Source: Phycisphaerae bacterium (GTDB taxonomy: Bacteria; Planctomycetota; Phycisphaerae; UBA1845). From it: a stretch of 64,000 nt of DNA. A program made the translations under genes and the position numbers. The DNA lies in NCBI GenBank assembly GCA_029260135.1, contig JAJDDV010000210.1:1-64000 (forward strand), written 5' to 3'. Positions 3,557 through 21,846 of the stretch are shown piece by piece (position 1 is the stretch's first letter; the number at the start of each line of letters is the position of its first letter). The notes beneath the pieces were generated by a model. It did no database searches. It saw only the letters and a list, made by a program, of their open reading frames with translations, and was not told the DNA's origin.

Positions 3557-6500
3557 ATGGCAGTGACCACCGCGTTGACGCTAATGCTCGTCGTAACCAC
3601 CTGGGGACAGGTCGGTCCGCTTCCGCACCTCGAATCGCTGAATCAGGGTGTCGACACTCCCGCGCGGGTCGCGGTGGCTCCCGATGGTACGGTGCTGATC
3701 ACCGACCCGACGCGGAACCGTATTCTTCGATTCGACGCAGCCTCCGTCCCGCTTTCGGCGTGGATCGTGCCGGAAGGTCCCGTCGGCATCGGTGCGCACC
3801 CCGATGGGCGGTTCTTCGTCTCGCTGCAGGATGTGCCCCAGGTAGGCGTTTATGACGCGACCTTGACGCGCACTGGATTCCTCGGCGAGGGCAACCCGAT
3901 GGTCTCCTTCGTGCGTCCGACCGCCATTGCCATCAGCGACTCAACGGGCAAGGTCTACGTGGTGGATTCCGGCGGGGACAGAGTCTACGGATTCGCCGGC
4001 GACGGAACGCTGGCGTTGATGACCGGCATTCGGGGCGAACTGCCGGGTCAGCTTCAGTTCCCCAGTGCGATCGCCGTCGACGAAGGGAACAACCGCCTCG
4101 TCGTCGCAGACCATGATAACTTCAGGATTCAGATCTTTTCGACCACCGGTTTGTTTCTGCAACGCTTCGGCTATCGCATGAAGTACGTCGTGGGCGGCAC
4201 CCAGGAAGGATGGATGCCGCGCACGCTCGGGCTCGCCGTCGACGCAGCAGGCCGCATTTACGTCGCCGACGCCATGATGAGCACCGTCCGCATCTTTGAT
4301 CAAACAGGAACCGAACTGGGCAAAGTGCTCCAATACGGATCCGCACCCGGCGATCTCCGAACCCCCGGCGGCCTCGCGCTGAGCAACGACGAATCGAAAC
4401 TCTACGTCGTCAGCGCCAACACCTCCAGTGTCGAAGTCTACACCACGCCCACGCTCGGCGCGGGCGCCGATCTGGCGAGCGCAAGGCCCGACCAGGCGAT
4501 GGATCCGCCGGGCACCAACCGAAGTTTGTTCGACGTCATCGCCGCCAACACCTTGACACCGATGGTTAAGAGGAACACTCGAGCCCCGATGCGCCAGGAT
4601 GCTTCGAGCGTAGTGGCGGAGTTGCAGGCGGTCGATCCGCTGGTCAGCGTATCGCAGGCGGCGTCAGACGGTCCGCACATCATCCAGGCGTCGGTCATCT
4701 GTGGACGCTGTCACGGAATCGACGGTCAGCCCGGCGGTCACCCCGGATTGCTGGAGGGGCAGAACATGCTCTGCTTCTCGTGCCATAGTGGTGCCGGTCA
4801 GTCATCGACCCTTCCGATCCACGAAAGCGATGTGGCCGACCCCTTCGGGACGAACCCTGCGGCGATCGACGGGAAGGGTACTTCGCACGCGTGGGGCGTG
4901 CCGGCCGTCAACGCGATGGCGGATGCCGTCGGTCCCGTGCCGGGGAGTGCCATGGACCAGGAGCTTGTGGGTGGTTTGATCCTCTGCTCGACCTGCCATG
5001 ACGAGCACACCTCGGAGGCGGGCTGGCCGTATTTGCGGCGGTCGAACACCGGCGACGGCATGTGCAAAGAGTGTCATTCGGCGCGGAATCGCGGGCCGGG
5101 TCAGGGTGGGAGCCACGCCGTCGGCTTTGATTATCCCGGAGGTGTTGGCGAGTTTCCAGCAACATCCAGTATCGTGCCACTTGTTCTGAAGGATGCCAAG
5201 GTCGAGTGCCTGACCTGTCACGACATTCACAATGTGGATTCCGGAGGCGCGAACGGCGGGGCAGGAGACGGGATGCTGCTGCGTGTCGCCAACGACGAGA
5301 CATTATGTCAGACCTGTCACACGGGGCATATTGGCCACACGCCGAGCGGTTCGTGGCAGCCGACGTGTCAAGACTGTCACGCGGTTCATGATGTGTCGAA
5401 CACAAACTTGTCGTTGGTCGGCGCGACGGTTCACAACCGGACGCTGGGCGTGGACAAGACCGTGGTCTTCGCGGCGCGAGACGGGGTCGGGAGCTTCGAC
5501 GACGGCGATCCGGCGTTGAATGACGGGATCTGCCAGGTGTGTCACACGGTGACCACCTACCACAAGCACGACGGGACCGGAACGGTTCACAATGACGGGG
5601 CGACGTGCACGGTCTGTCACCCGCACGACGCCGGGTTCATGCCGACGGGGGGCGATTGTACGTCCTGCCACTCGGTGGCGCAGGACAATGGTGACGGTAT
5701 TCCTGTGGGTGGTCGTCGCGCGGTGGTCGGGGAGTTTCCCGTAGCCGATGCGCATGCGCACTACGGCGTGGATCTGGACAACAACGCTTGCCGTGTGTGC
5801 CACGACCAGTCGACGCACATGGACGGTAACGTCGACTTGATTGATCCGGACGACGGTAGTCTTTACACGTTCGTGAGCCCGGATCAGCTCACGTCGGATC
5901 CTGACCTGTCCGATTTCTGCGCCGGTTGCCACGACGCGGACGGCGCGGTTCGACTCGGCGCTTTGGCGCTGGATCCGTTCGGCAACGGCAACGTTCCGCC
6001 GCCGGTGGCGGAGAGATTCCAGGGCACGCTTCAATGGGAGGAAGAGTACGGCGATTTCTGCTTCGGGACGGAAGGCAATCTCCGCCCGGTGAACAGCCAC
6101 CACGACATCAGCGATGCGGATCAGGCGTTCAGCGGCGCGAAGATCGAGTGCCTGAGCTGTCACGGGGCGCACACGGCGTCTCAATCGCAGCCGATCTCCG
6201 ACCCGTTCAACACGACGACGGCCTGGGCGGGCGATGGCAACGGGTTCTGCCTTTCGTGTCACGCCGGCGGAGCGAGCCCCGTCGATCCCGGATTCCCCTC
6301 GGGGGTTGTCGGTCCGATTATCGATGTGACGGATCCGCGCTGGTCGTCGTTGGGCATGGACTGGTGCGAGATTCTCGACGGCGCGTGCGCGGTGGGCGAT
6401 TGCTCGTCGCTCCGAGGGGTCGACAGCAGGAAATTCGACGAGGGTCCCTGGTGGGTCCAGTACACGTGGACGCATGAGGCACACGGTCTGGACTCGAAGC

Positions 6501-7741
6501 GAGGTTGGAACGGTTACTCCGGGGCGACGGCGTACGACATGGACTGCCAGGTCTGCCACGACCCGCACGGATCGTATTCGGCGACGAACACGGCCGGGAA
6601 TCCCTACATGATCCGCGACGTTGTCGACGGCAGTGCGTTTGAGGATGACGGAAGCCTGGACGGCGGGTTCAACGGGCCGCCCTTCACAACGTTCGGGACG
6701 TCGCGCGAGGTCGTGGTCCCGGTCAGTGGGATCGACGTCGGCTGGGGCAGCCCGCAGGGGCTTTGCGAGGCCTGTCACGCGGGCTGGGTCAATTCGATGT
6801 GGGCGCACGGTATGTGCAGCGGTTGCCAAACGTGCCATGGACACGGAATGGCATGGGGGGCTGTGGATGCCGTGGACTACAACAGTGATACGCCGCTTCC
6901 GTTCAACGATACGTGCGAGCGCGGATGGATCTACGAACTCGGAGGGGCTCACGGCCCGCGGCTGAAGGTCGATGCGCCACGGGTGGAGGGCAACACGAAC
7001 GCGCTCGACGACAGCACGCCGATTTGCGGTACGGATTCACCGCGTCAGGGGTTGTGGTATGCCGTGGCGGGAACCGGCGGTACGTTGACGGTGTCCACCT
7101 GTCAGCCGGGTACGACCTTTGACACGAGTCTTCAGGTTTTTTGTGGGTGTGACTTGGTGGGCTGCGTCGGCGGGAACGACGATGACGCTTCCTGTGCGCT
7201 TTCTCCGACGAGTTCGACCTTCAGTTGGTGCTCCGATCCCGATCAGCTTTACTCCGTTCACGTCGGTGGTTCCGGTGCGAGTTCAGGCGTCTTCGAGCTG
7301 CTCCTGACGGACGACGGCATTGCCTGCGGCAGTGCGCCAGCTTGTACGCCGGATATTGGAGCTTGTTGCGTGGGCGAGACTAATACGGCCAACAACCTTC
7401 GCACCGAGTGCGACGGGCTCGGCGGCGACTGGTATCTGGGCGAGGATTGCGCAACGTTTACGTGTCCACCACTTGGTGCGTGTTGCGACGCGGGCGAGTC
7501 GTGCGTGGCGACGAACACCCAGGCTCAGTGTACGGCGCTGGGCGGGACGTGGACGACGGGGCAGGACTGTGCGACGTTTGCGTGCCCTGCTCCCGGGCTG
7601 GCTCCGCAAACGCCTGCTTCGGGCGGCGTGGCGAAGAGCGCAGAACCGCTGGATATGGGGCCTGGTTCGGTTCCGATGGGCGAGGGGGCGACGACGCGGC
7701 CGCTACACAAACCGCTGCACCGAGCGAACGAGCGCCGATAA
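3557..7741 (+). CDS. NHL-propeller/17-haem c-type cytochrome fusion (cytochrome 1)
   Basis: This 1394-residue protein starts at ATG 3557, just after AAGGAG; an in-frame GTG at 3563 would give better spacing. A short hydrophobic N-terminus (MAVTTALTLMLVVTTWG) is the likely export signal. Residues about 25-310 are NHL-type propeller blades, with repeats such as PTAIAISDSTGKVYVVDSGG. From about residue 378 to 1095 there are 17 CXXCH haem-c motifs, many followed by a second His (for example CLTCHDIH, CLSCHGAH). A region with Cys-rich loops follows, and the C-terminus carries two GACC-type cysteine repeats shared with secreted planctomycete proteins. It lacks the EF-hand-like linker of the other three cytochromes. 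The haem attachment implies export and assembly outside the cytoplasmic membrane. Electron transfer is inferred from the haems; substrate and partners are unknown. Confidence 0.9.
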   Translation: MAVTTALTLMLVVTTWGQVGPLPHLESLNQGVDTPARVAVAPDGTVLITDPTRNRILRFDAASVPLSAWIVPEGPVGIGAHPDGRFFVSLQDVPQVGVYDATLTRTGFLGEGNPMVSFVRPTAIAISDSTGKVYVVDSGGDRVYGFAGDGTLALMTGIRGELPGQLQFPSAIAVDEGNNRLVVADHDNFRIQIFSTTGLFLQRFGYRMKYVVGGTQEGWMPRTLGLAVDAAGRIYVADAMMSTVRIFDQTGTELGKVLQYGSAPGDLRTPGGLALSNDESKLYVVSANTSSVEVYTTPTLGAGADLASARPDQAMDPPGTNRSLFDVIAANTLTPMVKRNTRAPMRQDASSVVAELQAVDPLVSVSQAASDGPHIIQASVICGRCHGIDGQPGGHPGLLEGQNMLCFSCHSGAGQSSTLPIHESDVADPFGTNPAAIDGKGTSHAWGVPAVNAMADAVGPVPGSAMDQELVGGLILCSTCHDEHTSEAGWPYLRRSNTGDGMCKECHSARNRGPGQGGSHAVGFDYPGGVGEFPATSSIVPLVLKDAKVECLTCHDIHNVDSGGANGGAGDGMLLRVANDETLCQTCHTGHIGHTPSGSWQPTCQDCHAVHDVSNTNLSLVGATVHNRTLGVDKTVVFAARDGVGSFDDGDPALNDGICQVCHTVTTYHKHDGTGTVHNDGATCTVCHPHDAGFMPTGGDCTSCHSVAQDNGDGIPVGGRRAVVGEFPVADAHAHYGVDLDNNACRVCHDQSTHMDGNVDLIDPDDGSLYTFVSPDQLTSDPDLSDFCAGCHDADGAVRLGALALDPFGNGNVPPPVAERFQGTLQWEEEYGDFCFGTEGNLRPVNSHHDISDADQAFSGAKIECLSCHGAHTASQSQPISDPFNTTTAWAGDGNGFCLSCHAGGASPVDPGFPSGVVGPIIDVTDPRWSSLGMDWCEILDGACAVGDCSSLRGVDSRKFDEGPWWVQYTWTHEAHGLDSKRGWNGYSGATAYDMDCQVCHDPHGSYSATNTAGNPYMIRDVVDGSAFEDDGSLDGGFNGPPFTTFGTSREVVVPVSGIDVGWGSPQGLCEACHAGWVNSMWAHGMCSGCQTCHGHGMAWGAVDAVDYNSDTPLPFNDTCERGWIYELGGAHGPRLKVDAPRVEGNTNALDDSTPICGTDSPRQGLWYAVAGTGGTLTVSTCQPGTTFDTSLQVFCGCDLVGCVGGNDDDASCALSPTSSTFSWCSDPDQLYSVHVGGSGASSGVFELLLTDDGIACGSAPACTPDIGACCVGETNTANNLRTECDGLGGDWYLGEDCATFTCPPLGACCDAGESCVATNTQAQCTALGGTWTTGQDCATFACPAPGLAPQTPASGGVAKSAEPLDMGPGSVPMGEGATTRPLHKPLHRANERR

Positions 7742-7838
7742 CGGGCGCTCGCGCGGGTCGGCGCGGTTCTTGCACTTGTCTTTCCAGGGAATAGTTCGGA
7801 CAATGTATGGGGAGAGTCATCCTAGGAAGGGGTCCTAT

Positions 7839-8672
7839 ATGTCCTGCGTTCGATACATTGCTACATCGTTCGTTCTGCTCGGAGCGGTCTTGGGAGGTCC
7901 TGCGTCGCGTGCGGTGTCGGCGGACAGTGTCAACGTCTATCCGAACAAGGACGGCACGCTGGTGGATGGCGGGGTCCACGGTTCCTTTGGCGGAGGGGCC
8001 GACGGCATGGACTGGTTCTTCAACGGTTTCGGGAACATCCCTGAAGGTGCGATCACGCGGAGCGTATCGGACCCGGACCGGAAATTCGAGAGCCGGCTTG
8101 TTTTTGAGTATGACCTGCTGCGGGTGACGTACACGGCGCCGGTCACGGCGACGCTTCACTTCAACTTGCGGAGTGCGCCGGTTTTTCCGATTCGGCAAGT
8201 GGAGGTGTTCGTTTTCAGTTATCCGGCGGACCTTTTGGAGCAGAAGTCGGACTACGATGAAGGCCCTGCGGAGCTCCAGGGGCACGCGGTGACCATCAAC
8301 TATGGGGCTACCAAGTCGTATGTGGTGGATGTGAGTCCAGTGGTCGATGCGGCGCTGCTCTCGGGCGTAAAGAAGGTGGGGTTTCGCTTTCAGATCAACC
8401 CCGCGACGTCGAATCCGGATAGTCAGGCGTTTATCGACGCGAAGGACAGCGATCCGACGACGAAGCCGACCCTCGTGGTGAAGGACTCCGCTCCCGGAGA
8501 GGTTGACGGAGACGGCGTGGCGTCGATGGGTGACGTTCCTGAGTTCGAAACGTGCATGATGGGGCCGAGTTCTTCTCGAGGCGTTTCGTGCGAGCTGGCT
8601 GACTTCGATTCGGACGGCGATGTCGACCTACGCGACTACCAGTTCTTGCATCGTTATTTCGCGACCCGCTGA
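7839..8672 (+). CDS. Secreted protein with dockerin-like C-terminus
   Basis: I choose ATG 7839 because it places a signal peptide (MSCVRYIATSFVLLGAVLGG) at the N-terminus behind an AGGAAGGGG stretch; in-frame starts upstream would bury it. The 277-residue product has a central beta-rich domain resembling DNRLRE-type modules seen in secreted carbohydrate-binding or adhesion proteins, with paired 'LVFEYDL' and 'TKPTLVVKD' ends. The C-terminal 60 residues are a dockerin-like tail: a first calcium loop (VDGDGVASMGDV), the CMMGP motif common in planctomycetes, and a second loop (DFDSDGDVDLRDYQF). It lies between cytochromes 1 and 2, about 100 bases after the first. A structural or accessory role on the cell surface is an inference; no catalytic residues are recognisable. 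Confidence 0.8.
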   Translation: MSCVRYIATSFVLLGAVLGGPASRAVSADSVNVYPNKDGTLVDGGVHGSFGGGADGMDWFFNGFGNIPEGAITRSVSDPDRKFESRLVFEYDLLRVTYTAPVTATLHFNLRSAPVFPIRQVEVFVFSYPADLLEQKSDYDEGPAELQGHAVTINYGATKSYVVDVSPVVDAALLSGVKKVGFRFQINPATSNPDSQAFIDAKDSDPTTKPTLVVKDSAPGEVDGDGVASMGDVPEFETCMMGPSSSRGVSCELADFDSDGDVDLRDYQFLHRYFATR

Positions 8673-8680
8673 GTAAAGGG

Positions 8681-8700
8681 ACCTGCCGTCAGGGGCAGGT
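8681..8700 (+). terminator. Short hairpin after dockerin-tailed gene
   Basis: Eight bases after the stop codon a 7-bp stem (ACCTGCC/GGCAGGT) with a 6-base loop can form. No T-tract follows, so it may be only a weak or factor-assisted terminator, or an mRNA-end structure. Confidence 0.35.
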
Positions 8701-8741
8701 GGGCCAGGGTTCGTGCACAGGGCATTCCTCGCGTTTCTTCG

Positions 8742-9145: not shown

Positions 9146-9870
9146 CGGGATGGCCGACCGCAAGGCGGCGCGACGGAACGCAAGCGCGGCGCCGCTCGTT
9201 CGGGAACGACCCGGCGAGCGGCGTCGGGCGTTGGACGAGCAGACGCGGAGAGGAAGTTTGCGTGGGGCCGATTCTCTCGTCCCGGCGTCGAGGTTGGGGT
9301 CTGCGCACGAAGCGGGTATAGGGTCCGATACTCGGGGTCCGGGCGATAGCGCCGTCTCCCATCATCGAGAGACCCATCCGTTTTCTTCCTGGGAGCGGGA
9401 ACTTTTTCGGGTCATCGTTCCGACGCCGGCAAACCGGGCGCCAAACGTAACTCGCTTATTTGCAGGGGGTTACGTGCAGTTCTCTCATTCTTCGGAGCCT
9501 GATACGGCGTGCGCGGTTCAGGATGGCATCACCCTTGCCCTTTCTCAAATAGAGGTAGGTTGCGTCTGTCTCGATGCGGTCTAGGTCTCATCGTTAAGAC
9601 TCTGTATTGATGTCGCGAAGCGGCGGACGACGCCTGTCGGTTTGGAGGACGCTGGAAGTAGGGATGAGATAGCGAGGATTTGACGGCAACGGCGGCGTTC
9701 CGGGCGGGTGGCCACGCTCGAAATGCCTTGTGAACCCGGAACGCTGACAAGGGGCGTGACGGTGCGGAAGCACTGTCACGCCCCTTGTTCGTTGCCTTTG
9801 GATACAACGTGAACGCTGGTACTCAACGTCGGGACTGGATGGGAATTTACCTTTCGTAGGAGTGGTGAGC
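9146..9870. other. Intergenic region before cytochrome 2
   Basis: There is no coding signal here. Visible features are a strong hairpin (listed separately) and an inverted repeat of 7 bases (ACGTAAC...GTTACGT, about 9443-9474). The promoter of cytochrome 2 presumably lies in the last 100 bases; no consensus boxes are clear. Confidence 0.5.
9747..9788. repeat. Perfect 14-bp hairpin with GNRA-type loop
   Basis: Arms 9747-9760 and 9775-9788 are perfect reverse complements (ACAAGGGGCGTGAC and partner). After one mismatched pair, a 4-bp inner stem GTGC/GCAC closes a GGAA tetraloop. It sits about 80 bases upstream of the cytochrome 2 start. No T-run follows on either strand, so it may be a terminator for the relic gene upstream or a 5' UTR structure. 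Confidence 0.6.
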
Positions 9871-12800
9871 ATGGTAGGCGCATTGATCATCGCGGTTGCA
9901 TCAGCCACCGTGGGACCGACATCCACGGTGACGCATACCGGAACGATTTCGAACGGGCTGACCAACCCGGGACGTCTTGCGGCTGGGCCGTTCGGCAGCC
10001 TGTTGGTCGCGGATCAGGCGGCGGATGCCGTTTTGGAGTATTCGACGGCGGGGGGGGGCGTGCTCGTTGCCACGCATCCTGTCGCGGATCCGGTTGGGGT
10101 CGCCCTCCTTCCGGATCTTCGGATCTTCATCGCGCACGGGGACGGAAGCCTGAACGTCTATGACGCAGGATTCGTTCTCATTGGGCCTGTCGATCCGACG
10201 CCGCTGACGATGGTGGCGCCGAATGATCTGGCATTTGATGGCGTCACCGGTGAGCTGTATGCGGTGGATTCGTACGGGGATCAGATACTGGTCTTCGCGG
10301 AATCCGCTCCGGGTGCCAACGACTGGGCACTCGTACGGGCCTGGGGCGTCGAAGGCGCGGGACTGTCGGAGTTTGAGACGCCGCAGGCGATCGCCGTGGG
10401 CGGCGGACAGGTGATCGTTACGGATACCGACAACTACCGCGTTCAGGTGTTCACCACTTCCGGGATGCTTGTTCGCAAGTTCGGATATCGCATTTTGTTC
10501 CTTCCTGGCAGTGCTGAGGGCTGGTTCGCTCGTAGCGAAGGGCTGGCGCTGGACTCCTGCGGCAACATTTATGTTTCTGATGCGCTGTTTGGGACGGTCC
10601 GTGCATTCGATCCGCTCGGAGTCGAGCTTGATCCCGCGCATCTTCCGGTGGTTGCGTATGGGGCCAACCCGGGGGATGTTCGTGTTCCGATGGACATCAC
10701 CATTTCGGGCGGCGTGTTGTATGTCGTGAGTGCTGCCAACGGGGCGGTCGAGACGTATGACGTGGCTTGCACGATGGCGGCGATGGGCTCTGCGGCCAGC
10801 GTCAGCGGTACACTCGACACGCCACGATCAACCAAGCGAGTGCGTCGGGTGAGCCCGCCGGACAATCCGTCGGATATCGCGTTGGCGATCCGGGCCGGGC
10901 GGTTCTCGCCATCGTTGGATCTGAACATGGACCGTGAGGTCGATGCGGCGGATTTGGAGATGGCGGTGAGCCAATTCGGCGTGGGTTCGGTGGATTCGTT
11001 CCTCGGCGGCGACGTTGCGACCACGAACTTCACGGCTCCGCACGTTCTGGATTTGACAGTGGCCTGCGGTCGATGTCACCACAACAACACGCCGGAGGGC
11101 GGACTTCTGACGGCCGGCGGCCAAGCCAACGTTTGTGCCTCGTGCCACACGTCCGGCGGAATTGCCGGTAACATGGTGGTCGATGTGAATCGGGGGGACA
11201 ACTCGCACGCGTGGGGTGTTGCGGCGGTGAATCCGACGTATCACTCGATGGGCCCGGATCCGGCGAGTGCCAGCGAAATGGCGCTTCACCTGGACGGCGG
11301 CGACATCCGGTGCGGTACGTGCCATAACCAACACGGCGATGACTACGGCAGCCCGTACCTTCGCTGGCCGACGGACATGGGCAAGTTGTGCATGGAGTGC
11401 CACCGCGGCGCCGATGCTCCGACGAATCATGCCGAGGGCATGGCGCACGGTCCGGAGTATTGCACGGACTGCCACGACATGCACGCCGACAACAACAACT
11501 ATGCGCTGACGAAGGCGTCGATGTACAGCTGGTACATCAACGGCTTTGCGGGCGGTATGGTCACGACCGGGTTTACCGACAACACGATCGGCGTCGGGAA
11601 CGGCGGTTTCGTCGATCCGGATGCGGACGAATTCGGATTGTGCGACGTCTGCCACCCCTACTTCGACGACAGTCAGGTGCCGCCGGTTCCGTCGGCGGAG
11701 TTCCTGGCGTTGAGCGTGCCGCACGATGCGGCCATGCCGGCGTGCACAACGTGCCACAAGCACCACAATGCATTCCTGCCTGGTCTGGGTCAAGGGTTGG
11801 CGGCGGGTGAGTATGTCGGAGCTGACACGTGTGCCCAGTGCCACGTCGGCCCGCACGGAACGTGGACGAGCACGATCCATGCGTCGGCGTTGGCGAACAT
11901 CACACCGTTCGCCAACACCAATCCGGCCTGCCTTCCGTGCCACACGGTTGGCTTCGGGCTGCCGAGCGGATTCGTGGATGAGGCGACGACGCCGCATTTG
12001 GCCGGTGTGCAGTGCGAGAACTGTCACGGCCCGGGATCGGATCACGTTAACGCGGCGCATACGACGAATATTGCGATCGATAAGACGTCGGAGCTGTGCG
12101 GCAATTGTCACACGGACAGCCACCATCCGACGATCGATGAGTGGACGACGTCCGGTCACGCCACGGCGTCCGGGAATGCTCACTACGGATCGTGCAATGC
12201 ATGTCATAAGCCGCTGGGTGATGACCCGAACACGGGTCTGCACCTGGATGTAGAATGCGTTGCGTGTCACAACTCGCACGCCCAGACGGGGAACGATACG
12301 GTTCCGAATCCTCCGCATGACAGTCAGCTTCTGCATCCTGAGACGGCAAGCCCGATTCCGTCGAACGTCATCACGGACGCGACGGACCCGGCCCGGTTTA
12401 ACCTCTGCGGTCAGTGTCACCACAGTCGCGGTCGCGTGTGGACGGCGACGAGTCGTGGACCGCACCACAGTCTGCAGGCGAATGTCTACCTTGGCGAGAT
12501 GCCGATGCCGGTGGGCGAAGAGGCCACGCCTTTGGCGCCCAACACCGTGTCGGATCACGCCGGTCTGGCGCTTCAGTGCAACACGTGCCACATGTACAAG
12601 GCGGCGCATCAGGACGGTCCGCCCGAGGTCGACGCGATCACGGGGCATAGCTGGCACGTCAACTACGAGGCGTGTGCAGGATGTCACGGTTCGGCGGCTG
12701 CGGCGCAGGCGCTGACCACGGCGATCCAAGGTACCGTCCACGCCCGCTTGGATGCAATCAAGGCTGCCATGGGTGATCCGTCACTCTGGGAGTACTCCTG

Positions 12801-14178
12801 CTGTGGCGGTCCTGCAGATCAGACGACCGTATCGGATACGCTGAAGCAGGTGCGGTTCCTGGTTGCGTACGTCGAAGGTGATGCCAGTTACGGTATCCAC
12901 AACGGTCCGTATACGGACGAGATGTTGACAGCTGCGGAGACGCTCATGGCGCTTCCGGCGTTGTCGGCCACCTACCTCGGTGCGGACGTCTGTTCCGCGT
13001 GTCACACTACGAAACACGCCGACTGGACCGGGACGCAGCACTCGCAGGCCCTGGTGAACATAACACCGTTCGCCAATACGAACCCCGTCTGTCTGGGCTG
13101 CCATACGGTCGGTTTCGGCACAGTGGGTGGTTTCGTGGATGAGGCGACAACGCCACATCTGGCGGGTGTCCAGTGCGAGAACTGCCACGGTCCGTCGAGT
13201 ACGCACGTTCTGAGGCCGTGGGATACCTCGCTGCAGCCGGTGGTAGACAAGACCGCTGAGTTGTGCGGCGCGTGCCACACGGACAGCCACCACCCGACGT
13301 ATGACGAGTGGGGGACATCACTCCACGCAAATTCAGCCGTGGATGCTCACGGAATATCGTATTGCTTCCCGTGTCACGCGCCGTTAAGTGCTGCGGGTGA
13401 TCCGGTTCTTCTCGATGTCGAGTGCGCGGCTTGCCACGACTCGCACAAGCAAACCGGCAATGATGAGATTCCGAATCCGCCACACGACAGTCAGCTGTGG
13501 CATCCGGAAGTAGCGAACCCCACTCCGTCCAACGTCATCACCGATGCGACGGACGGCGCCCGGTTCAATCTGTGCGGACAGTGTCACCACAGTCGCGGTC
13601 GAGTGTGGACGGCGACGGATCGCGGACCGCACCACAGTCTGCAGGCCAACGTCCTGCTCGGCGAGATGCCGATGCCGGTCGGTGAAGAGGGCACGCCACT
13701 GGTGGCGAACCTGACAGGTACGCACGAGTCGGCGCAGATCCAGTGCGTGACGTGTCACATGGAGACCGCGCCGCACCAGGACGGTCCGCCTGAGGTGCCT
13801 GCGAACACAGGTCACACGTACGCGATGTCGACCGGCAACTGCTCGATGGTCGGATGTCACGTGGATGAGCCCACGGCGATTGCCGCTCTGGCGGCGCGTC
13901 AGGCGACAACACAGGCGGGTATTGACGACATCACGACGCGTCTGGGCGATCCGCTGACGTGGGAGTACTCCTGCTGTGGCGGTCCGCCGGAAGCGGTGGA
14001 TTGTGCGGCTGATCCGCTCTGCTTGGTATCGCAGGATGATATCCTGGATGACATCAAGAAGATCCGGTTCCTGCTGAAGTACGTTGAGGGTGATGCGAGC
14101 CTTGGTGCGCACAACCCGATTTATGTTGCTGCGATCATTGCGGAGGCCCGGGCGATTCTGACAAGTCTCGGGATGTAG
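9871..14178 (+). CDS. NHL-propeller/24-haem c-type cytochrome fusion with duplicated c554-like module (cytochrome 2)
   Basis: ATG 9871 follows AGGAG at 8-base spacing (in-frame GTGs at 9862 and 9865 are less suited) and gives 1435 residues. A short hydrophobic leader (MVGALIIAVASATVG) precedes an NHL propeller (about residues 20-310), then an EF-hand/dockerin-like linker (DLNMDREVDAADLEMAV). Haem motifs begin near residue 400; there are 24 CXXCH plus one CX4CH (CSMVGCH, codons 13840-13860). The second half is an internal duplication: units near 11809-12969 and 12970-14160 each begin with YVGAD/YLGAD-C..CH, contain GVQCENCHGP and GQCHHSRGRVWTA, and end with EYSCCGGP. These units resemble the cytochrome c554 family. 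The CX4CH falls where unit 1 has CAGCH, so it probably still binds haem. Function beyond electron transfer is not inferable. Confidence 0.9.
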   Translation: MVGALIIAVASATVGPTSTVTHTGTISNGLTNPGRLAAGPFGSLLVADQAADAVLEYSTAGGGVLVATHPVADPVGVALLPDLRIFIAHGDGSLNVYDAGFVLIGPVDPTPLTMVAPNDLAFDGVTGELYAVDSYGDQILVFAESAPGANDWALVRAWGVEGAGLSEFETPQAIAVGGGQVIVTDTDNYRVQVFTTSGMLVRKFGYRILFLPGSAEGWFARSEGLALDSCGNIYVSDALFGTVRAFDPLGVELDPAHLPVVAYGANPGDVRVPMDITISGGVLYVVSAANGAVETYDVACTMAAMGSAASVSGTLDTPRSTKRVRRVSPPDNPSDIALAIRAGRFSPSLDLNMDREVDAADLEMAVSQFGVGSVDSFLGGDVATTNFTAPHVLDLTVACGRCHHNNTPEGGLLTAGGQANVCASCHTSGGIAGNMVVDVNRGDNSHAWGVAAVNPTYHSMGPDPASASEMALHLDGGDIRCGTCHNQHGDDYGSPYLRWPTDMGKLCMECHRGADAPTNHAEGMAHGPEYCTDCHDMHADNNNYALTKASMYSWYINGFAGGMVTTGFTDNTIGVGNGGFVDPDADEFGLCDVCHPYFDDSQVPPVPSAEFLALSVPHDAAMPACTTCHKHHNAFLPGLGQGLAAGEYVGADTCAQCHVGPHGTWTSTIHASALANITPFANTNPACLPCHTVGFGLPSGFVDEATTPHLAGVQCENCHGPGSDHVNAAHTTNIAIDKTSELCGNCHTDSHHPTIDEWTTSGHATASGNAHYGSCNACHKPLGDDPNTGLHLDVECVACHNSHAQTGNDTVPNPPHDSQLLHPETASPIPSNVITDATDPARFNLCGQCHHSRGRVWTATSRGPHHSLQANVYLGEMPMPVGEEATPLAPNTVSDHAGLALQCNTCHMYKAAHQDGPPEVDAITGHSWHVNYEACAGCHGSAAAAQALTTAIQGTVHARLDAIKAAMGDPSLWEYSCCGGPADQTTVSDTLKQVRFLVAYVEGDASYGIHNGPYTDEMLTAAETLMALPALSATYLGADVCSACHTTKHADWTGTQHSQALVNITPFANTNPVCLGCHTVGFGTVGGFVDEATTPHLAGVQCENCHGPSSTHVLRPWDTSLQPVVDKTAELCGACHTDSHHPTYDEWGTSLHANSAVDAHGISYCFPCHAPLSAAGDPVLLDVECAACHDSHKQTGNDEIPNPPHDSQLWHPEVANPTPSNVITDATDGARFNLCGQCHHSRGRVWTATDRGPHHSLQANVLLGEMPMPVGEEGTPLVANLTGTHESAQIQCVTCHMETAPHQDGPPEVPANTGHTYAMSTGNCSMVGCHVDEPTAIAALAARQATTQAGIDDITTRLGDPLTWEYSCCGGPPEAVDCAADPLCLVSQDDILDDIKKIRFLLKYVEGDASLGAHNPIYVAAIIAEARAILTSLGM

Positions 14179-14323: not shown

Positions 14324-14366
14324 GACCGTGAGCAGTCGTAAGAGCGGCTGCCACGGTCTTTTTTTT
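14324..14366 (+). terminator. Intrinsic terminator between cytochromes 2 and 3
   Basis: A GACCGTG/CACGGTC stem (14324-14330 with 14352-14358) with possible inner GCAG/CTGC pairing is followed by eight T residues (14359-14366). This is the clearest plus-strand terminator in the array and suggests cytochrome 2 ends its transcript here. Confidence 0.75.
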
Positions 14367-14551
14367 GCGCCATCGAAGATCTTGCCGCCGGGGCGTTGCC
14401 CGTTCCGGTCTTGCGGTTCTATCCCACGCCTACCGAGTCCGTCCGTGGTCTATTGCCATTTGTGAGAAGTTGGCTAGTTTGACGAACGACCGAGCCGGGG
14501 CTCATACTGCCCAGGTTCACACTCACGCGGCGCGCTAAAGGAGTAGTGGGA
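14367..14551. promoter_or_regulatory. Upstream region of cytochrome 3
   Basis: This short region between the terminator and the start of cytochrome 3 must contain its promoter. It ends in AAAGGAG eight bases before ATG 14552. I see no clear -35/-10 pair. Confidence 0.35.
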
Positions 14552-16711
14552 ATGATCGTCACGTCTTTGATCGCTCTTGGTTTGTCGACGGTGGGGCCGA
14601 CATCTACCGTGACCCATACGGGGAGGATTTCGGAGGGGCTGGTCCATCCAGGTCGTTTGGCGGCTAGACAGGGCGGTGGCGTGTACGTAACCGATTCGCC
14701 AAGCGGCCATGTGCTGGAGTATGACGGCGGCGGGACGTTGGTGGCCACGCACGCCGTTGCGGCGCCGATGGGGATCGCCTCACTCGCGGATGGACGGGTC
14801 TTCGTTTCTCACGCAGACGGATCGTTGAATGTGTACGACGCGGCGTTCTCGTTGCTGGGGCCGGTGAGCGCTACGCCACTCAGTCTGACATCGCCGAACG
14901 ATCTGGCCGTTCACGCGGCGACGGGGGAGTTGTACGCGGTGGACGCTCAGGGCGATCAGATTCTGGTGTTCGCCGAGTCGTCGTTGGGAGCGGGCGACTG
15001 GGGATTGGCGAGGGCGTGGGGGATCAGAGGATCGGGATTGTCGGGGTTCGAGACTCCGCAAGCGATCGCGATCGACCCCGTCAAAGAGCACGTCATCGTT
15101 ACGGATGTCGACAACTATCGCGTTCAGGTCTTCAGCACGACCGGGATCGTGCAGTTCGCGTTCGGGCATCGGATTCTGTTTCTTCCGGGGAGTGAACGGG
15201 GCTGGTTCATGCGAAGCGAGGGCGTGGCCGTCGATGCGTGTGGCAACATCTACGTGGCGGATGCGTTAATGGGAACGGTTCGCGTGTTCGACTCTCGAGG
15301 CGGTGAGCTCGACCCGGCGCACGCACCGGTCGTCTCTTTTGGATCGGGACCGGGTGACGTTCGGACGCCTTGCGACGTCTTGATTGTCGGGGATCGGCTC
15401 CATGTGGTCAGCGCAAACCGCTCATCGGTCGAGGTATATGACGTGACGTGTACGGTGGGTGTGGTCGGCGCCGGCGCGATCGTCACCGGGCGAGGTGGAT
15501 ACGATGCAGAGGAGCGCGGTCGCGGTTCTGACGGTAAGTTGCATCGACGGCCGGTCGTACCGGATCATCCGTTTGAAGTCGTAGCGGCTCTCGAAACGGG
15601 GGTCTTCTCGGCATCGGCGGATCTGAATCTCGATCGCGTCGTCGACGTGGATGATCTGGCGATGGCGACGAGGCGGTTCGGTGTCGGGGGCGTCGAATCG
15701 GTCCTTCAGGCATGGAGCGCCGAAGGCGGGATCGCGCTAACCGACTTTGCGCCGCCGCATGTGATCGATATTCCGATCGCGTGCGGGCGGTGTCATTCGG
15801 ATGGAATTCCGGATGGAGGCATGACGACGGCGGCGGGACAGGCGAACCTCTGCATGTCCTGTCATACCGCATCGGGAATCGCGTCGACGTCGGTCCTCCG
15901 TGACGCGGACCGGGCCGATCCGTATGGCTCCGGTCGCGGAACATCGCACGCGTGGGATGTTCCGGCGATCAATGCTGCGGCGGGGGCAGTGGGGCCGAGT
16001 GCGGGGAGCGAGATGGAACGCTATCTCGACGAAGGTCGAATCAAGTGCGCGACCTGTCACGATCAGCACGATGACACGTACGGTTCGTACCTGCGTCAGT
16101 GGAACAACGTGGATCAAATGTGTCGTGATTGTCATGCCGCGCGAGTGACCGGCGCCGGGTCTCACCCGGTGGGTATGGTCTACGCAGACGACGCGGCACA
16201 CGCCGCCGTCGAGGATCTGACGGGAGTCGTACTCAAGGAAGGCCAAGTACAGTGCATGAGCTGTCACGGCGCCCATCACATGGACTCTGGGGGCGCGAAC
16301 GGAGGCCTGGGCGATGGCAACCTGCTGCGGACGGCCAACGACGAGGCCCTCTGCATGACGTGCCACACGGGTCCGGACGCGCCGATGTTTCACGGCACGG
16401 TGTTCCCGCAGAATTGCCGTGTGTGCCATCACGTCCACCAGGACGCCACCTCGAACCTGTCGCTGATCGGGGAGAACCTGGAGACTTTTATCGGGCCGGC
16501 GTCGATCGTCTTTTGGGACAACAGCATCGGCGTTGGTCCGGGCGCGTTCGTCGATCCCGATCCGAATGTCCGAGGGATCTGCGAGGGGTGTCACAGCTAT
16601 CCTCCGACGATACTTCCCGCAACCGCGCCGGCCCACACGATCGATCCGCCGATGGCGGCGTGTACGTCGTGCCACGAACATCGCAACGGATTCGAGATCG
16701 TCGCGCCGTAA
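14552..16711 (+). CDS. NHL-propeller/9-haem c-type cytochrome fusion (cytochrome 3)
   Basis: This is the shortest of the four cytochromes (719 residues). ATG 14552 is chosen for its AAGGAG at 8-base spacing over a GTG at 14546. Leader MIVTSLIALGLSTVG leads into the shared VGPTSTVTHTG segment, an NHL propeller (about residues 20-310), then a linker with an EF-hand/dockerin-like loop (DLNLDRVVDVDDLAMA). Nine CXXCH motifs follow from about residue 411 to 709. Most correspond to the haem region at the start of cytochromes 1 and 2 (CGRCHSDG, CMSCHTAS, CATCHDQH). It ends shortly after the ninth motif and has no C-terminal adhesive domain. I infer an exported electron carrier that keeps the basic haem domain without the modules added in cytochromes 2 and 4. 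Confidence 0.9.
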   Translation: MIVTSLIALGLSTVGPTSTVTHTGRISEGLVHPGRLAARQGGGVYVTDSPSGHVLEYDGGGTLVATHAVAAPMGIASLADGRVFVSHADGSLNVYDAAFSLLGPVSATPLSLTSPNDLAVHAATGELYAVDAQGDQILVFAESSLGAGDWGLARAWGIRGSGLSGFETPQAIAIDPVKEHVIVTDVDNYRVQVFSTTGIVQFAFGHRILFLPGSERGWFMRSEGVAVDACGNIYVADALMGTVRVFDSRGGELDPAHAPVVSFGSGPGDVRTPCDVLIVGDRLHVVSANRSSVEVYDVTCTVGVVGAGAIVTGRGGYDAEERGRGSDGKLHRRPVVPDHPFEVVAALETGVFSASADLNLDRVVDVDDLAMATRRFGVGGVESVLQAWSAEGGIALTDFAPPHVIDIPIACGRCHSDGIPDGGMTTAAGQANLCMSCHTASGIASTSVLRDADRADPYGSGRGTSHAWDVPAINAAAGAVGPSAGSEMERYLDEGRIKCATCHDQHDDTYGSYLRQWNNVDQMCRDCHAARVTGAGSHPVGMVYADDAAHAAVEDLTGVVLKEGQVQCMSCHGAHHMDSGGANGGLGDGNLLRTANDEALCMTCHTGPDAPMFHGTVFPQNCRVCHHVHQDATSNLSLIGENLETFIGPASIVFWDNSIGVGPGAFVDPDPNVRGICEGCHSYPPTILPATAPAHTIDPPMAACTSCHEHRNGFEIVAP

Positions 16712-17286
16712 AGAGCAAGTGCGTCGTTCAGCATCTTGCGCCAAACGGAATAACACTTCCGGGCATCTCTTCGTCGCGTCACCTTCGCGTGTCTCCCCGT
16801 GTCGCTGTCGGCACTCAGGAATGAGGCTTACACAGGTTCGAGCTGACGGCGGTTCGTACGGAGAATGTCGTTCCTGAGGGGCTGCCTCTCGGTTGTATGC
16901 GAACGACCTCTTCCTTGACCAACAGTCGCTGTTTCGATCGGCGTCGGGTCGGATGAGTTGTGTCGAACCGTACTCGCCGGTGGTAACGCCGTGTACGCAG
17001 GTTCCCAAACACTGGAAGTGCGAGCCGCGGAAATCTCTGAGTTGGGAATATCGAGGGGGCGGGCCCGGCCTGAAACTGGCGGGTCTTGAACTCGCAAAAC
17101 CCTCAAGAGTATAGGCTTATGGTCGTTTCGCTGGATTTCGGGTACCGCAAATCTCACGATCGATAACAAACGGCATCGCACTTGCTAAATATGGGGCGGA
17201 GCGCGGGGCTGCATCCTGCGAGATTCGGGCTTGGGCTGGCCGGGCCAATATTCTACGTATTGAGAACAGCTAAAGGAGCGGGAAGT
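16712..17286. other. Intergenic region before cytochrome 4
   Basis: About 575 bases without a recognisable gene. An in-frame start at 17182 would add 35 residues to cytochrome 4, but those residues do not resemble its paralogues' N-termini. I see no hairpin with a T-tract after cytochrome 3, so read-through is possible. Confidence 0.5.
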
Positions 17287-20200
17287 ATGGTAGGCGCACT
17301 GTTAATCGCCATCGCATCGGTCTCGGTGGGGCCGACATCCACGGTTTCGCATACGGGGACGATCTCGACGGGGCTGCACACACCCGGACGCATCGCGGTG
17401 CCAGCCGGCGGCGGGTTGTTCGTCACGGATCAACCGAACGATCAGATTCTCCAGTACGATGCAGCCGGCGCGCTCGTTGCGGCGTACGCTGTAGCGGATC
17501 CGATGGGCATTGCCACGCTTTCGGACGGGCGCGTCTTTGTCTCGCAGGGAGATGGCACGCTCAACGTTTTCGACGCCGCTTTCGGGCTCATCGGGACAGT
17601 CAATCCGGCGCCACTCACGATGGTCGCGCCGAATGACTTGGCTGTGGATGCCACGACGGATGAGTTGTATGCCGTCGACGCGTACGGTCATCAGGTCATG
17701 GTCTTCGCGGAATCGGCGCCGTTGGCGAATGACTGGGCGTTGGCTGTGGCGTGGGGCATCGAGGGGGCCGGACTCTCCCAGTTCGAGACACCGCAGGCGA
17801 TTGCGGTCGACGGCGCGAACAACCGCGTGATCGTGACCGACACGGACAACTATCGAGTGCAGGTTTTCAGTACGGCAGGGATCCTGCAGTTCAGTTTCGG
17901 ATACCGGGTTCTCTTTCTCCCCAACAGTGATGACGGTTGGTTTGCGCGCAGTGAAGGACTCGCGCTGGATGCGTGCGGAAACATCTATGTCGCAGATGCG
18001 CTGTTTGGCACGGTTCGCGCGTTCGACCCGACCGGCGCGGAGATTGATCCCGCTCACACGCCGGCGATCACTTACGGAACCAATCCCGGTCAGGTTCGAG
18101 TTCCGATGGATATGTTGATTTCCGCAGGCACGCTCTACGTCGTGAGTGCCGCGAATGCCACCGTCGAGACCTACTCCGTCGGTTGTTCGGTTGCGGCGTC
18201 GAGTGGCGGAACGGCGAGCGTGCCGGCGCTTCCGACGCGGGACGCGAAGAAGGTGCGTCGAGTCAGTCCGCCCGACAATCCAGGGACCATCGCGGTCGCC
18301 ATCGAGCGTGGCGAGTTCTCGCGAACGCTTGACCTCAACGCCGACCGCCAGGTCGATACGACCGACCTGGAGATCGCCGTCGGCCAGTTCGGCGTGGGCT
18401 CGGTCGACGAGTTCCTCGGTGAGGGCGGGGTCGCCACGACGACCTTCGAGGCGCCGCACGTGCTCGATCTCACGTTCGCTTGTGGTCGCTGTCACCATGA
18501 CGCCTCTCCCGACGGCGGGATGCTCGCTGTGAATGGCCAGCAGAACCTCTGTCTGTCCTGTCACACGTCGTCCGGTGTGGCTTCGACGTCAATTATCTCC
18601 GAGCAGAACTACGGGGTAGCACACCCGATCGGGATTCCGGCAGACCAGGGCCTCTCACTGGGGCCGGATCCAACCAGTTACGCGGAGCTTGCCTTGCACC
18701 TGGACAACGGGAACATCCGTTGCGGAACTTGCCATAACCCCCACAGCGATGACGTCGGGTCGCCTCTGCTGCGGGCTCCGATCGGAAACGCCGCGCTCTG
18801 CAGTGAGTGCCACGTAGAGGGCGCTCAGTGGGCGTTGGCAGGCCACTCTCATGGAGATGACACAGCGTTCAACTATCCCGTGGGTCCCGGACGTGAGTCC
18901 TGCGCGAAGTGTCATTCGGGCCTCGGGCACATCGACTTTGCCAACGGTGTCCCACAGGCGCAGCGGCGGACCGATAAGCAGGTCCACTCCTGCTTCGTAT
19001 GCCACGGTGTCCACGAGAACGGCAACGCGCACCTTCTTCGTCTGAACGGTCAGGTGACGTTGCCCGGCGATCACGTTGTGGACGCAGGTGACGACGCCAA
19101 CTGCATGGAATGTCACAACGGTCGTTACGCACCAAACACGGGTCACAGCACGCCCCACTACCTTCCCGGCGCCGTGGTCTTGCTCGGACTCAACGGCATC
19201 GATTTCGGCAACACGATTGACCAGTCGGCGCACGCCGTTCTGGCTGGGTGTGTTGACTGTCACATGGCTGCCACGCCGGGTACGCCCAAAGACGGCATAC
19301 AAAGTCCGGGGGAGGATAAGGTGGGTGGGCACACGTTCAATCTCGTGTATCACGATGCTACGGGGACCGACCCGGACGACGGTTTCGAGAACGCGCCGAA
19401 CGCTTGTGGCACCTGCCACCCTGGTCTGAACACCGTGAATCGAACGGCGTGGGGTGATTATGACGGTAGCGGTACGACCGACGGTATCCAGGACGAATTG
19501 ACCGGGCTTCTCGCCGCTGCTCACGGGGCGATTCTTGGCGCCGGTGCGGTGGATCTCGGTCACTATCCCTACTGGGATTTCAGTAGTGTGGCGCCTGTTG
19601 ATGACGAGACCGTTCGAGGGGCCGTCTGGAACTACGAGCTGATCGAAAACGATGGCAGCCTTGGCGTTCATAACGTGGGTTTTGCGGTGGGCTTGCTGCA
19701 GGCGACTTACCGTGAGCTGACCGGTATGGATGTCCCGGGCGCGAGCCTCCGTTATTCCTTCGGACCCAATGCCCGGCGAGGCGGGCTGCTCTACGACAAG
19801 TGGTGGGCGGTCAACGGAGCAGCGACTCCGACGGGAGACCACCTGCTGTATCCGGCGATCGGACAGAAGACCGGAAACACAACCTATCGCTGCAAAGAAT
19901 GCCACGGTTGGGACTACATCGGGGATCTTGGTCGCTATGAAAGCGGCAGCCACTTCACCGGCATCATGGGCGTCTCAACCGCGGCCGCCACGTGGAACGA
20001 TCAGGAGATGTTTGACATCATCAAGAACCCGGACGGCGATGGTACGGGCGGTACGACCGTAAACGGGCACAACTTCGCTGCGTACGGTCTGAGTGACTTC
20101 GACATTCTGGATCTTGTTGAGTTCCTTAAGACTGAGGTAGTTGATACGAGCCCCTACATCAATCGGGCGGGTGTACCTGGCGCATACAGCTACACCTTCA

Positions 20201-21846
20201 ACGGCGAGGTAGGTAACGGGTTTGGGCTTTATAGTGGTGGATCTAACGCCAATGCCGCCTGCTATGCGTGCCACGGCGCCGATGGCCGAACGCTGGACTT
20301 TGGCGGCGGGGTCTTCGTCGGTACGCTGGCCAACGACAATCCGCAGGAAGTTTTGCACAAGATTCGATTCGGGCAGCCCACGACGGCGATGACCAGCTTC
20401 GTGAAGCTCGGTTTGTCTCCTCAGGATGCCGCTGACGTCGGTGCCTATGCTGAGACACTGCCGACCGCAGCCGCGGTTGGCGGTGATGTGGTTCGCGGTG
20501 GGTTGTTGTACGACAAGTGGTGGGCCGTGAACGGCGCGCCGGCGCCGACGGTCGACAGTCCGATCTGGGCGCTGCAAAGCACGAACACGCGAAGCGGGTC
20601 CACCACGTATCGCTGCAAGGAATGTCACGGGTGGGACTACAAGGGAGCCGCCGGCGCCTACGGAAGCGGTAGTCATTTCACGGGCTTCACCGGGATCCTG
20701 AACACGGCCATGACCCAGGCCGAGCTGGTGACGTTCCTCACTACGGGCACGTATCCTGATGCCAGCGTGGTTCCCGATCATGTGATCGCCGACCTCACGG
20801 CGACGGACATCGATGATCTGGCGGCGTTCATGGCCACCGAGCTCGTTGACACGGACCTGTACATCGACTTTGCGACGAAGGCGTTTATCAACCCTGACCT
20901 TGGCAACGGGTTCGGCTACTACAGCGGACAACTTGATGGCGGTACGGCATGTTATCTGTGCCACGGCGCCGACGGACGAACGCTGGACTTCGGTGGCGGG
21001 ACGTTCATCGGGACGGTCGCCAACGGTAATCCTTGGGAGGCGTTGCACAAGACTCGCTTCGGTCAGCCCGGAACGGGCATGTGCAGCCTCGTGCAACGGG
21101 GCCACACCGCCCAGGATGCAGCGGACGTCAGCGGGTACACCCAGACACTTCCCGCTGCAGCCGCGGTTGGCGGTGATGTGGTTCGCGGTGGTTTGCTGTA
21201 TGACAAGTGGTGGGCCGTAAACGGCGCGCCGGCGCCGACGGTCGACAGTCCGATCTGGGCGCTGCAAAGCACGAACACGCGAAGCGGGTCCACCACGTAT
21301 CGCTGCAAGGAATGTCACGGGTGGGACTACAAGGGAGCCGCCGGAGCCTACGGAAGCGGTAGCCATTTCACGGGCTTCACCGGGATCCTGAACACGGCCA
21401 TGAACCAGGCCGAGCTGGTGACGTTCCTCACGACGGGCACGTATCCCGATGCCACTGTCGTTCCCGATCACGTGATCGCCGACCTCACGGCGACGGACAT
21501 CGATGACCTGGCGGCGTTCGTGGCCACCGAGCTCGTCGATGCGGATCTGTATATCGACTTCGCGACGAAGGCGTTTATCGGAACCGGCGTTCCGGACGGT
21601 CAGGATCTGTTCACGGGTGTGACGGATCCCGTTTCCGATTGCACGCTGTGCCACGGTGTGGACGGAACGGCGATCGACTTCGGCGGCGCGACGTACGTAG
21701 GTACCGTAGCCAATGGAAATCCTTGGGAGATGTTGCACAAAGTTCGATTCGGGCAACCCGCCTCAGCGATGCCCAGCCACGTGCGTCTGGGCTTGACGAC
21801 GCAGCAGGCCGCCGATTTGGGAGTATGGGCACAGACGTTGCCGTAG
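17287..21846 (+). CDS. NHL-propeller/15-haem c-type cytochrome fusion with three tandem dihaem modules (cytochrome 4)
   Basis: ATG 17287 follows AAAGGAG and aligns with the MVGAL start of cytochrome 2; it gives 1519 residues. The leader and VGPTSTVSHTG segment, NHL propeller (about 20-320) and EF-hand-like linker (DLNADRQVDTTDLEIAV) match its paralogues. Nine CXXCH motifs lie in the central region (about residues 398-720). The C-terminal third holds three tandem modules, each starting GGLLYDKWWAVNG and carrying CKECHGWDY plus a second motif such as CYACHGADGRTLDF, so six more haems. The modules resemble class I c-type cytochrome (mono/dihaem CccA-like) folds. Modules 2 and 3 are nearly identical at DNA level with a 690-base period. 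I infer an exported redox protein grown by recent module duplication. Confidence 0.9.
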   Translation: MVGALLIAIASVSVGPTSTVSHTGTISTGLHTPGRIAVPAGGGLFVTDQPNDQILQYDAAGALVAAYAVADPMGIATLSDGRVFVSQGDGTLNVFDAAFGLIGTVNPAPLTMVAPNDLAVDATTDELYAVDAYGHQVMVFAESAPLANDWALAVAWGIEGAGLSQFETPQAIAVDGANNRVIVTDTDNYRVQVFSTAGILQFSFGYRVLFLPNSDDGWFARSEGLALDACGNIYVADALFGTVRAFDPTGAEIDPAHTPAITYGTNPGQVRVPMDMLISAGTLYVVSAANATVETYSVGCSVAASSGGTASVPALPTRDAKKVRRVSPPDNPGTIAVAIERGEFSRTLDLNADRQVDTTDLEIAVGQFGVGSVDEFLGEGGVATTTFEAPHVLDLTFACGRCHHDASPDGGMLAVNGQQNLCLSCHTSSGVASTSIISEQNYGVAHPIGIPADQGLSLGPDPTSYAELALHLDNGNIRCGTCHNPHSDDVGSPLLRAPIGNAALCSECHVEGAQWALAGHSHGDDTAFNYPVGPGRESCAKCHSGLGHIDFANGVPQAQRRTDKQVHSCFVCHGVHENGNAHLLRLNGQVTLPGDHVVDAGDDANCMECHNGRYAPNTGHSTPHYLPGAVVLLGLNGIDFGNTIDQSAHAVLAGCVDCHMAATPGTPKDGIQSPGEDKVGGHTFNLVYHDATGTDPDDGFENAPNACGTCHPGLNTVNRTAWGDYDGSGTTDGIQDELTGLLAAAHGAILGAGAVDLGHYPYWDFSSVAPVDDETVRGAVWNYELIENDGSLGVHNVGFAVGLLQATYRELTGMDVPGASLRYSFGPNARRGGLLYDKWWAVNGAATPTGDHLLYPAIGQKTGNTTYRCKECHGWDYIGDLGRYESGSHFTGIMGVSTAAATWNDQEMFDIIKNPDGDGTGGTTVNGHNFAAYGLSDFDILDLVEFLKTEVVDTSPYINRAGVPGAYSYTFNGEVGNGFGLYSGGSNANAACYACHGADGRTLDFGGGVFVGTLANDNPQEVLHKIRFGQPTTAMTSFVKLGLSPQDAADVGAYAETLPTAAAVGGDVVRGGLLYDKWWAVNGAPAPTVDSPIWALQSTNTRSGSTTYRCKECHGWDYKGAAGAYGSGSHFTGFTGILNTAMTQAELVTFLTTGTYPDASVVPDHVIADLTATDIDDLAAFMATELVDTDLYIDFATKAFINPDLGNGFGYYSGQLDGGTACYLCHGADGRTLDFGGGTFIGTVANGNPWEALHKTRFGQPGTGMCSLVQRGHTAQDAADVSGYTQTLPAAAAVGGDVVRGGLLYDKWWAVNGAPAPTVDSPIWALQSTNTRSGSTTYRCKECHGWDYKGAAGAYGSGSHFTGFTGILNTAMNQAELVTFLTTGTYPDATVVPDHVIADLTATDIDDLAAFVATELVDADLYIDFATKAFIGTGVPDGQDLFTGVTDPVSDCTLCHGVDGTAIDFGGATYVGTVANGNPWEMLHKVRFGQPASAMPSHVRLGLTTQQAADLGVWAQTLP
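20467..21580 (+). repeat. Near-identical 690-bp direct repeat inside cytochrome 4
   Basis: The segment from about 20467 to 20890 recurs from about 21157 to 21580 with only scattered, mostly third-position changes. Long stretches around the CKECHGWDYKG haem site match almost base for base. A third, more diverged copy begins near 19774. This indicates a recent in-frame tandem duplication. Confidence 0.9.

Follow-up and report, generated by a model that had tools for sequence, protein, structure and literature searches.

NHL propeller–multihaem cytochrome fusions in Phycisphaerae and their link to an OmcE/Uet-like electron-transfer gene cluster

Genes for NHL propeller proteins have often been reported beside nanowire and porin-cytochrome genes, and separate NHL proteins accompany multihaem electron-conduit genes in the Uet system (PMC10734462), in D. 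ferrophilus (PMC9769857) and in Geoalkalibacter (PMC12016550); a demonstrated role for the propeller was not found in the literature we searched. Extracellular filaments are built by OmcE, and in them, as in OmcS, the haem at the subunit interface takes a ligand from the adjacent subunit (PMC9473688, PMC12954529); what such filaments do physiologically is disputed (PMC11077965). The window (the whole 64,000-nucleotide stretch that was analysed, positions 1 to 64,000 of contig JAJDDV010000210.1 from a Phycisphaerae bacterium) carries four genes in which an NHL propeller is covalently joined to a multihaem cytochrome. A preliminary description had named no described system of this architecture; separate NHL and multihaem conduit genes are in fact known, whereas a family of covalent fusions, with the regulation that it probably has, was not found described in the literature searched. 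On the evidence below we consider it reasonably probable that the products of the four genes are exported cytochromes accessory to an OmcE/Uet-type pathway of extracellular electron transfer, controlled by sigma-54 and provided with exchangeable distal haem modules.

All four fusions lie on the forward strand, and each begins with a leader and an NHL propeller. Fusion 1 (3557..7741; clade A of the tree described below) continues into a 4-haem core, a conserved 13-haem tail and a cysteine-rich C-terminal end, with 17 CXXCH motifs. The other three belong to clade B: fusion 2 (9862..14178) has an EF-hand/dockerin-like linker, the haem core and a cytochrome c554-like tail (24 CXXCH plus one CX4CH, CSMVGCH); fusion 3 (14546..16711), the shortest of the four, has an EF-hand-like linker and 9 haems; and fusion 4 (about 17287..21846, the more probable start lying near 17287) has an EF-hand-like linker and a 9-haem block followed by six class-I cytochrome c domains of one haem each, with 15 CXXCH in all. 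Our recount of the motifs reproduced the values first counted by eye, 17, 24 (+1), 9 and 15 (65 in total), and a chance origin was ruled out by composition-preserving shuffles, which held a mean of 0.02–0.14 CXXCH per protein and a maximum of 2. Cytochrome Pfam families scored above cut-off behind the NHL region, and together with the 65 motifs and with leader peptides judged by eye this bore out the description of the products as exported multihaem c-type proteins. The fusions showed neither a lipobox nor any other signal for export to the surface, and the proteins could be periplasmic. The array runs fusion-partner-fusion-fusion-fusion with spacings of 0.1–1.2 kb between genes, and therefore does not form one tight operon. 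The same genome has a fifth copy on another contig (C156:39869-41425, locus L077), cut short by the contig end and carrying at least 10 haems. That the fusion might be an assembly error, raised in the preliminary description as a concern, was ruled out by paralogues of 33–64% identity and by homologues in some 25 other, independent assemblies. At the edge of the window (1-2943, minus strand) is the gene of a large exported protein, truncated by the end of the contig, that matches DUF4215 and has cysteine-rich repeats resembling the C-terminal end of fusion 1.

The assignment of the propeller to the NHL type was upheld both by profile and by predicted fold: Pfam PF01436 scored 65.5, 40.0, 48.3 and 49.0 bits in proteins 1–4 (curated cut-off 20), and protein 3 was predicted to be six-bladed. 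An AlphaFold2 model of protein 3, built with 34 relatives, placed the propeller at residues 1–290 (pLDDT mostly >90, lower at about 190–210) and a helical EF-hand-like segment at about 329–379 (pLDDT 67–92); the four-haem region was partly confident, and beyond residue 490 the model was unreliable (pLDDT <50) and gives no usable propeller-haem contacts. The best PDB matches to the propeller by Foldseek were the NHL domains of Thin and TRIM2 (E-values 1e-21 to 1e-19). The EF-hand/dockerin-like linker of clade B had no match to PF00404 (Dockerin type I).

When the four proteins were compared, homology extended past the propeller, covering about 530 residues (propeller, linker and first four haems) at 33–64% identity. 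The haem part of this core follows the pattern PH...CGRCH ... LCxSCH ... SHxWG ... CxTCHxxH ... LCxECH, and the PH before its first haem is invariant. The VGPTSTV(T/S)HTG segment that had been noted as shared by three is indeed common to proteins 2–4; protein 1 is without it. A tree of the core resolved clades A and B (support 100/100 each), clade A joining protein 1 with the fifth copy on contig C156 and clade B holding proteins 2–4. Genes 2, 3 and 4 grouped together at 93/94, with genes 2 and 4 as sisters at 100/98, and to judge from this tree the clade B proteins were duplicated inside this lineage. A clade A member adjoins clade B members both in a related locus (L002) and in the window, and fusion copy number differs among genomes. 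The tree grouping and the variable copy number are what would be expected if the array were a lineage-specific duplication with no coherent system behind it, its paralogues kept by chance; we already disfavour this reading and regard it as hardly credible, given that frames of up to 1,559 residues stay open, that tails are about 60% identical between genomes, and that the partner gene and promoter motifs described below are conserved.

Beyond the core the tails of the four proteins diverge, and each has its own relatives. The tail of protein 1 is 60–66% identical to those of relatives sharing its whole length (a frame-broken relative, L024, was left aside), while the propellers of the same relatives are 48–56% identical, which contradicts the idea that the propeller alone is constrained. 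Part of the tail of protein 2 resembles cytochrome c554 (PF13435, E-value 1e-20; PDB 1BVB, 5e-10), and in both L003 and L009 the identity of this tail is 61%. Protein 3 has five haems after the core. The short multihaem block of protein 4, which recurs in 12 relatives, is followed by the six class-I domains. A clade A protein of L031 bears a protein 2-type tail, and tail modules must therefore have been exchanged. By sequence, then, the distal tails are a limited set of conserved modules (a 13-haem type, a c554-like type and class-I cytochrome c chains). As it stood, the earlier suggestion that propellers bind a partner while the haem regions vary found no support in this comparison, as the first four haems are constant and the distal tails are conserved modules.

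The c554-like tail (PF13435 1e-20; 1BVB 5e-10) also invites a different reading, namely that the fusions are periplasmic nitrogen-cycle cytochromes whose tails take electrons from hydroxylamine oxidoreductase-type enzymes, with the propeller as a docking platform; linkage to the cytochrome cluster described below would then reflect a shared periplasmic haem pool and not export to the outside. Three of the related loci, L006, L007 and L009, come from the MAGs OFTM250, OFTM286 and OFTM285, which were proposed as possible anammox bacteria outside Brocadiales and reported to carry hao and hydrazine-synthase-like genes (PMC10732223); the main text of that paper makes no mention of NHL proteins. A tunnel biofilm that oxidises iron and manganese was the source of some related MAGs (PMC10732223), an origin that does not settle the direction of electron flow. 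We consider the nitrogen-cycle reading unlikely: the c554-like tail is present in some members of the fusion family only, the constant parts look like electron-conduit proteins, the fusion tracks an OmcE-like gene across genomes (see below), and no hydrazine synthase chain appeared in PDB searches with protein 1 (E-values up to 0.1) or with the core profile (up to 0.01). Homology to HzsA, HzsB or HzsC thus found no support among these PDB matches.

The fusion family recurs within the window's order. Full-length matches (E-value of 1e-40 or better) were found in 34 of its 114 genomes, across five families, and in none of 391 other planctomycetes at that threshold with 3–6 candidates per genome scored; when the threshold was relaxed, again with few candidates per genome scored, matches beyond the order covered the propeller only. 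The fusion is probably absent outside the order. A search of the genomes of 84,980 species with just two peptide patterns, both from the propeller, found full-length relatives only in Phycisphaerae/Planctomycetota assemblies. Neighbourhoods were compared across about 30 related genomes, and the array itself, whose recurrence had been named as something that would support a system, does have counterparts, e.g., fusion-fusion-partner-fusion in L002. A third, divergent fusion type, encoded by a single gene with NHL plus about 14 haems at near-constant spacing, was seen in two further families of the window's order (L063-L067, L070); its tails are at most weakly akin to those in the window.

Between fusions 1 and 2 lies a conserved partner gene (7839..8672, forward strand) encoding a secreted protein with no haem, predicted to consist of a carbohydrate-binding-module-like beta-sandwich and a helical, dockerin-like C-terminal segment (model pLDDT 79). 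Fourteen related loci have it next to a fusion (L002, L004-L007, L009, L010, L012, L014, L015, L019, L020, L026 and L032), and 30 of the 31 genomes that have it are fusion-positive. Its fold matched chondroitin-sulphate- and alginate-binding modules (E-values 7e-9 to 7e-8) at 10–15% identity, and it scored 21.3 bits against PF00404, under the cut-off of 22.9; because of the low fold identity and the sub-threshold dockerin match, its tie to polysaccharide is a proposal only. A true dockerin was rejected for both partner and fusion linkers, which scored below the Pfam cut-off or had no match and are called dockerin-like here, and a DNRLRE domain was rejected for the partner, which had no Pfam match to it and has a fold that fits carbohydrate-binding modules. 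The fifth fusion has a divergent neighbour (L077:3869-6250, minus strand) that encodes a partner-like N-terminal domain, a weakly lipase-like middle and an IPTL-CTERM sorting signal, hinting at surface anchoring.

In 12 related loci (L004, L006, L007, L012, L014, L020, L022, L025, L027, L029, L030 and L032) a fusion adjoins or sits inside a cluster of electron-transfer genes. Annotated by homology, and with some members missing or lost at contig ends, the cluster usually runs from a 5-haem gene through a histidine kinase, an NtrC-type regulator, an unknown exported protein and the 13-haem and tetrahaem genes to NHLa and a 5-haem gene. In L014 the fusion stands between two cluster halves and is followed by NHLa, 5-haem, NHLb and 11-haem genes, and in L022 the OmcE-like tetrahaem gene is directly upstream of the fusion and in the same orientation. 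In the window's own genome a complete cluster is found on contig C189 (L076), including P0006, P0013, P0009 and P0012 (the tetrahaem, undecahaem and NHL proteins) and P0011, a 698-residue putative outer-membrane porin that looks beta-barrel-like by eye and matched no Pfam family; the array is on C124, apart from the cluster, so the link in this genome rests on the relatives. A second NHL/multihaem cluster in the same genome (L075, C160:555-10426), with 8-haem, NHL, 4-haem, 11-haem and NHL genes, resembles the C189 cluster yet is distinct from it.

The cluster tetrahaem protein matched OmcE (7TFS) over nearly its whole mature chain (E-value 1e-18 alone, 6e-32 as a profile) and, to judge from these alignments, is a full-length, four-haem OmcE homologue; the 11-haem protein also holds an OmcE-like region (6e-29). 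For the haem core of the fusions OmcE was again the best PDB match (6e-10), with other multihaem proteins close behind, and in hhalign its lead was modest (98.1% versus 96.9% for the 13-haem protein, with the 5-haem protein close also). Across the 114 genomes the fusion and the OmcE-like gene occur together in 32, the fusion alone in 2, the OmcE-like gene alone in 1 and neither in 79 (Fisher p 9e-25, a value that ignores shared ancestry); the OmcE-like threshold was 1e-70, and at 1e-50 there were three more genomes with the OmcE-like gene only. The nearest unfused propeller to the fusions was NHLb (118–126 bits in Phycisphaerae, NHLa scoring 72–82), and the nearest unfused haem protein to the core was the 11-haem protein (44–54 bits in Phycisphaerae, 60 for an Opitutae relative, against 31 for the OmcE-like protein). 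Since the 11-haem gene directly follows NHLb and overlaps it, a Rosetta-stone argument suggests that the fused unit does the job of the pair; on these relationships the fusion is a covalently joined form of the known separate pair of NHL and OmcE-like 11-haem proteins. An unfused arrangement of overlapping NHL and 11-haem genes was seen in Opitutae (Verrucomicrobiota; L034:1958-4740), whose products were, among the unfused proteins tested, the closest to both fusion halves.

Because the core resembles a subunit family that polymerises, the fusions might instead cap, anchor or seed OmcE-like filaments, their tails chiefly storing charge. The invariant PH before the first core haem fits this structural role, as does the ligation of the interfacial haem by the neighbouring subunit in OmcE and OmcS (PMC9473688, PMC12954529). 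We nevertheless think it quite improbable, as the tails are conserved as much as the propellers or more, suggesting specific partners, and as the core has 3 invariant non-CXXCH histidines versus 5 in the OmcE-like protein.

The genes also appear to share their mode of control. Scoring candidate sites as matches to the 12 positions of the sigma-54 consensus TGGCACG-N4-TTGCW, we found at least 10 of 12 upstream of 22 of 30 fusion genes in relatives, mostly 80–180 bp before the mature protein, against a background of 2.1% of random segments from the same loci (binomial p about 1e-30, with no correction for homology). Sites also preceded kinase-regulator operons (7/8) and partner genes (7/14); an identical scan upstream of the 5-haem gene found none in 11. 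The window's own sites, all on the forward strand, are weaker than those of the relatives (9–10 of 12): candidate promoters for gene 1 (3478..3493, TGGTATCGAGCTTGCT, 9/12, weak if taken alone), the partner gene (7759..7774, CGGCGCGGTTCTTGCA, 10/12) and gene 4 (17171..17186, CGGCATCGCACTTGCT, 9/12), and a weak candidate upstream of gene 2 (9524..9539, TGGCATCACCCTTGCC, 9/12); for gene 3 the window scan gave no sigma-54-like site. RpoN is encoded in the window's genome, and the cluster regulator has GAFTGA in all examined loci except L007. From these motifs, sigma-54 regulation of the fusion genes is likely. About 15 kb downstream of the array, the window holds a kinase/sigma-54 regulator pair (37070-39744, minus strand) with GAFTGA present, whose regulator matches that of the cluster (2e-102); this pair could be the array's own activator.

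That a kinase/regulator pair adjoins the fusion in relatives might also mean that the fusions are haem-based sensors, the propeller binding a ligand and the haems reporting redox state to the linked kinase. This seems to us highly improbable: dozens of haems exceed any sensor's need, the cluster kinase is on another contig in the window's genome, and domain searches found no signalling domain in the fusions. Thus, where an electron-transfer or sensing apparatus had been proposed, the linkage to an OmcE/Uet-like cluster strongly indicates electron transfer, whereas sensing found no support.

We therefore return to accessory cytochromes of an extracellular electron-transfer system. From the architecture, homology, synteny, co-occurrence and enriched sigma-54 motifs, which are established, we infer a location outside the cell, docking, an electron path and tethering along the following lines. 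A signal would reach the NtrC-type two-component system, upon which sigma-54 RNA polymerase would transcribe the secreted partner along with the fusions. The propeller would dock the fusion onto the conduit, be it the porin, the 11-haem protein or the OmcE-like filament; the proximal four-haem core could then trade electrons with the conduit, and the distal tail module would exchange them with various external donors or acceptors. The EF-hand/dockerin-like linker of clade B, together with the carbohydrate-binding fold and dockerin-like end of the partner, may tether the assembly to extracellular polysaccharide. A bolder version, which we think rather unlikely, is a "plug board": sigma-54-controlled fusions clip onto an OmcE-like nanowire or conduit, the carbohydrate-binding partner holds them in the matrix by dockerin-like contacts, and interchangeable tails serve different minerals, partners or enzymes. 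A natural fusion of an NHL propeller with an OmcE-like cytochrome is evolutionary evidence of a single functional unit, and makes the job of the propeller testable. It also points to elaborate, probably sigma-54-regulated extracellular electron transfer in uncultured Phycisphaerae that inhabit groundwater, tunnels and sediments; metal cycling in these habitats is so far a suggestion.

Each part of the fusions can be set beside something already described. The NHL/TRIM-type six-bladed propellers resemble their N-terminal 290 residues in sequence and predicted fold, although the known propeller structures carry no haem and the fusions do. Hydrazine synthase of anammox planctomycetes likewise combines a beta-propeller with c-type haem; it shares this pairing and the phylum, but the propeller of the fusions is of the NHL type and has a long haem tail. 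Cytochrome c554 of Nitrosomonas (1BVB), which is like part of the tail of protein 2, is a free small periplasmic protein, whereas its counterpart here is a module in a 24-haem fusion. The OmcE filament of Geobacter sulfurreducens (7TFS) is homologous to the linked tetrahaem protein and is the best PDB match of the fusion core; compared with OmcE, a subunit known to polymerise, the fusions have in addition a propeller and about 5 to 40 more haems. The Uet porin-cytochrome pathway of 'Ca. Tenderia' and Gallionella has much of the same gene content: the tetrahaem, 11-haem, two NHL and putative porin proteins of the C189 cluster match the UetA, UetJ, UetHI and UetC kinds (PMC10734462), and in place of the trihaems of Uet (UetDEG) there are 5-haem and 13-haem proteins. 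In Uet the NHL and haem proteins are separate, whereas this genome has an extra family that fuses them. Since every part has a recognisable relative the family is not categorically new; it is a real family of fusions, one that enlarges a type of electron-conduit system already known.
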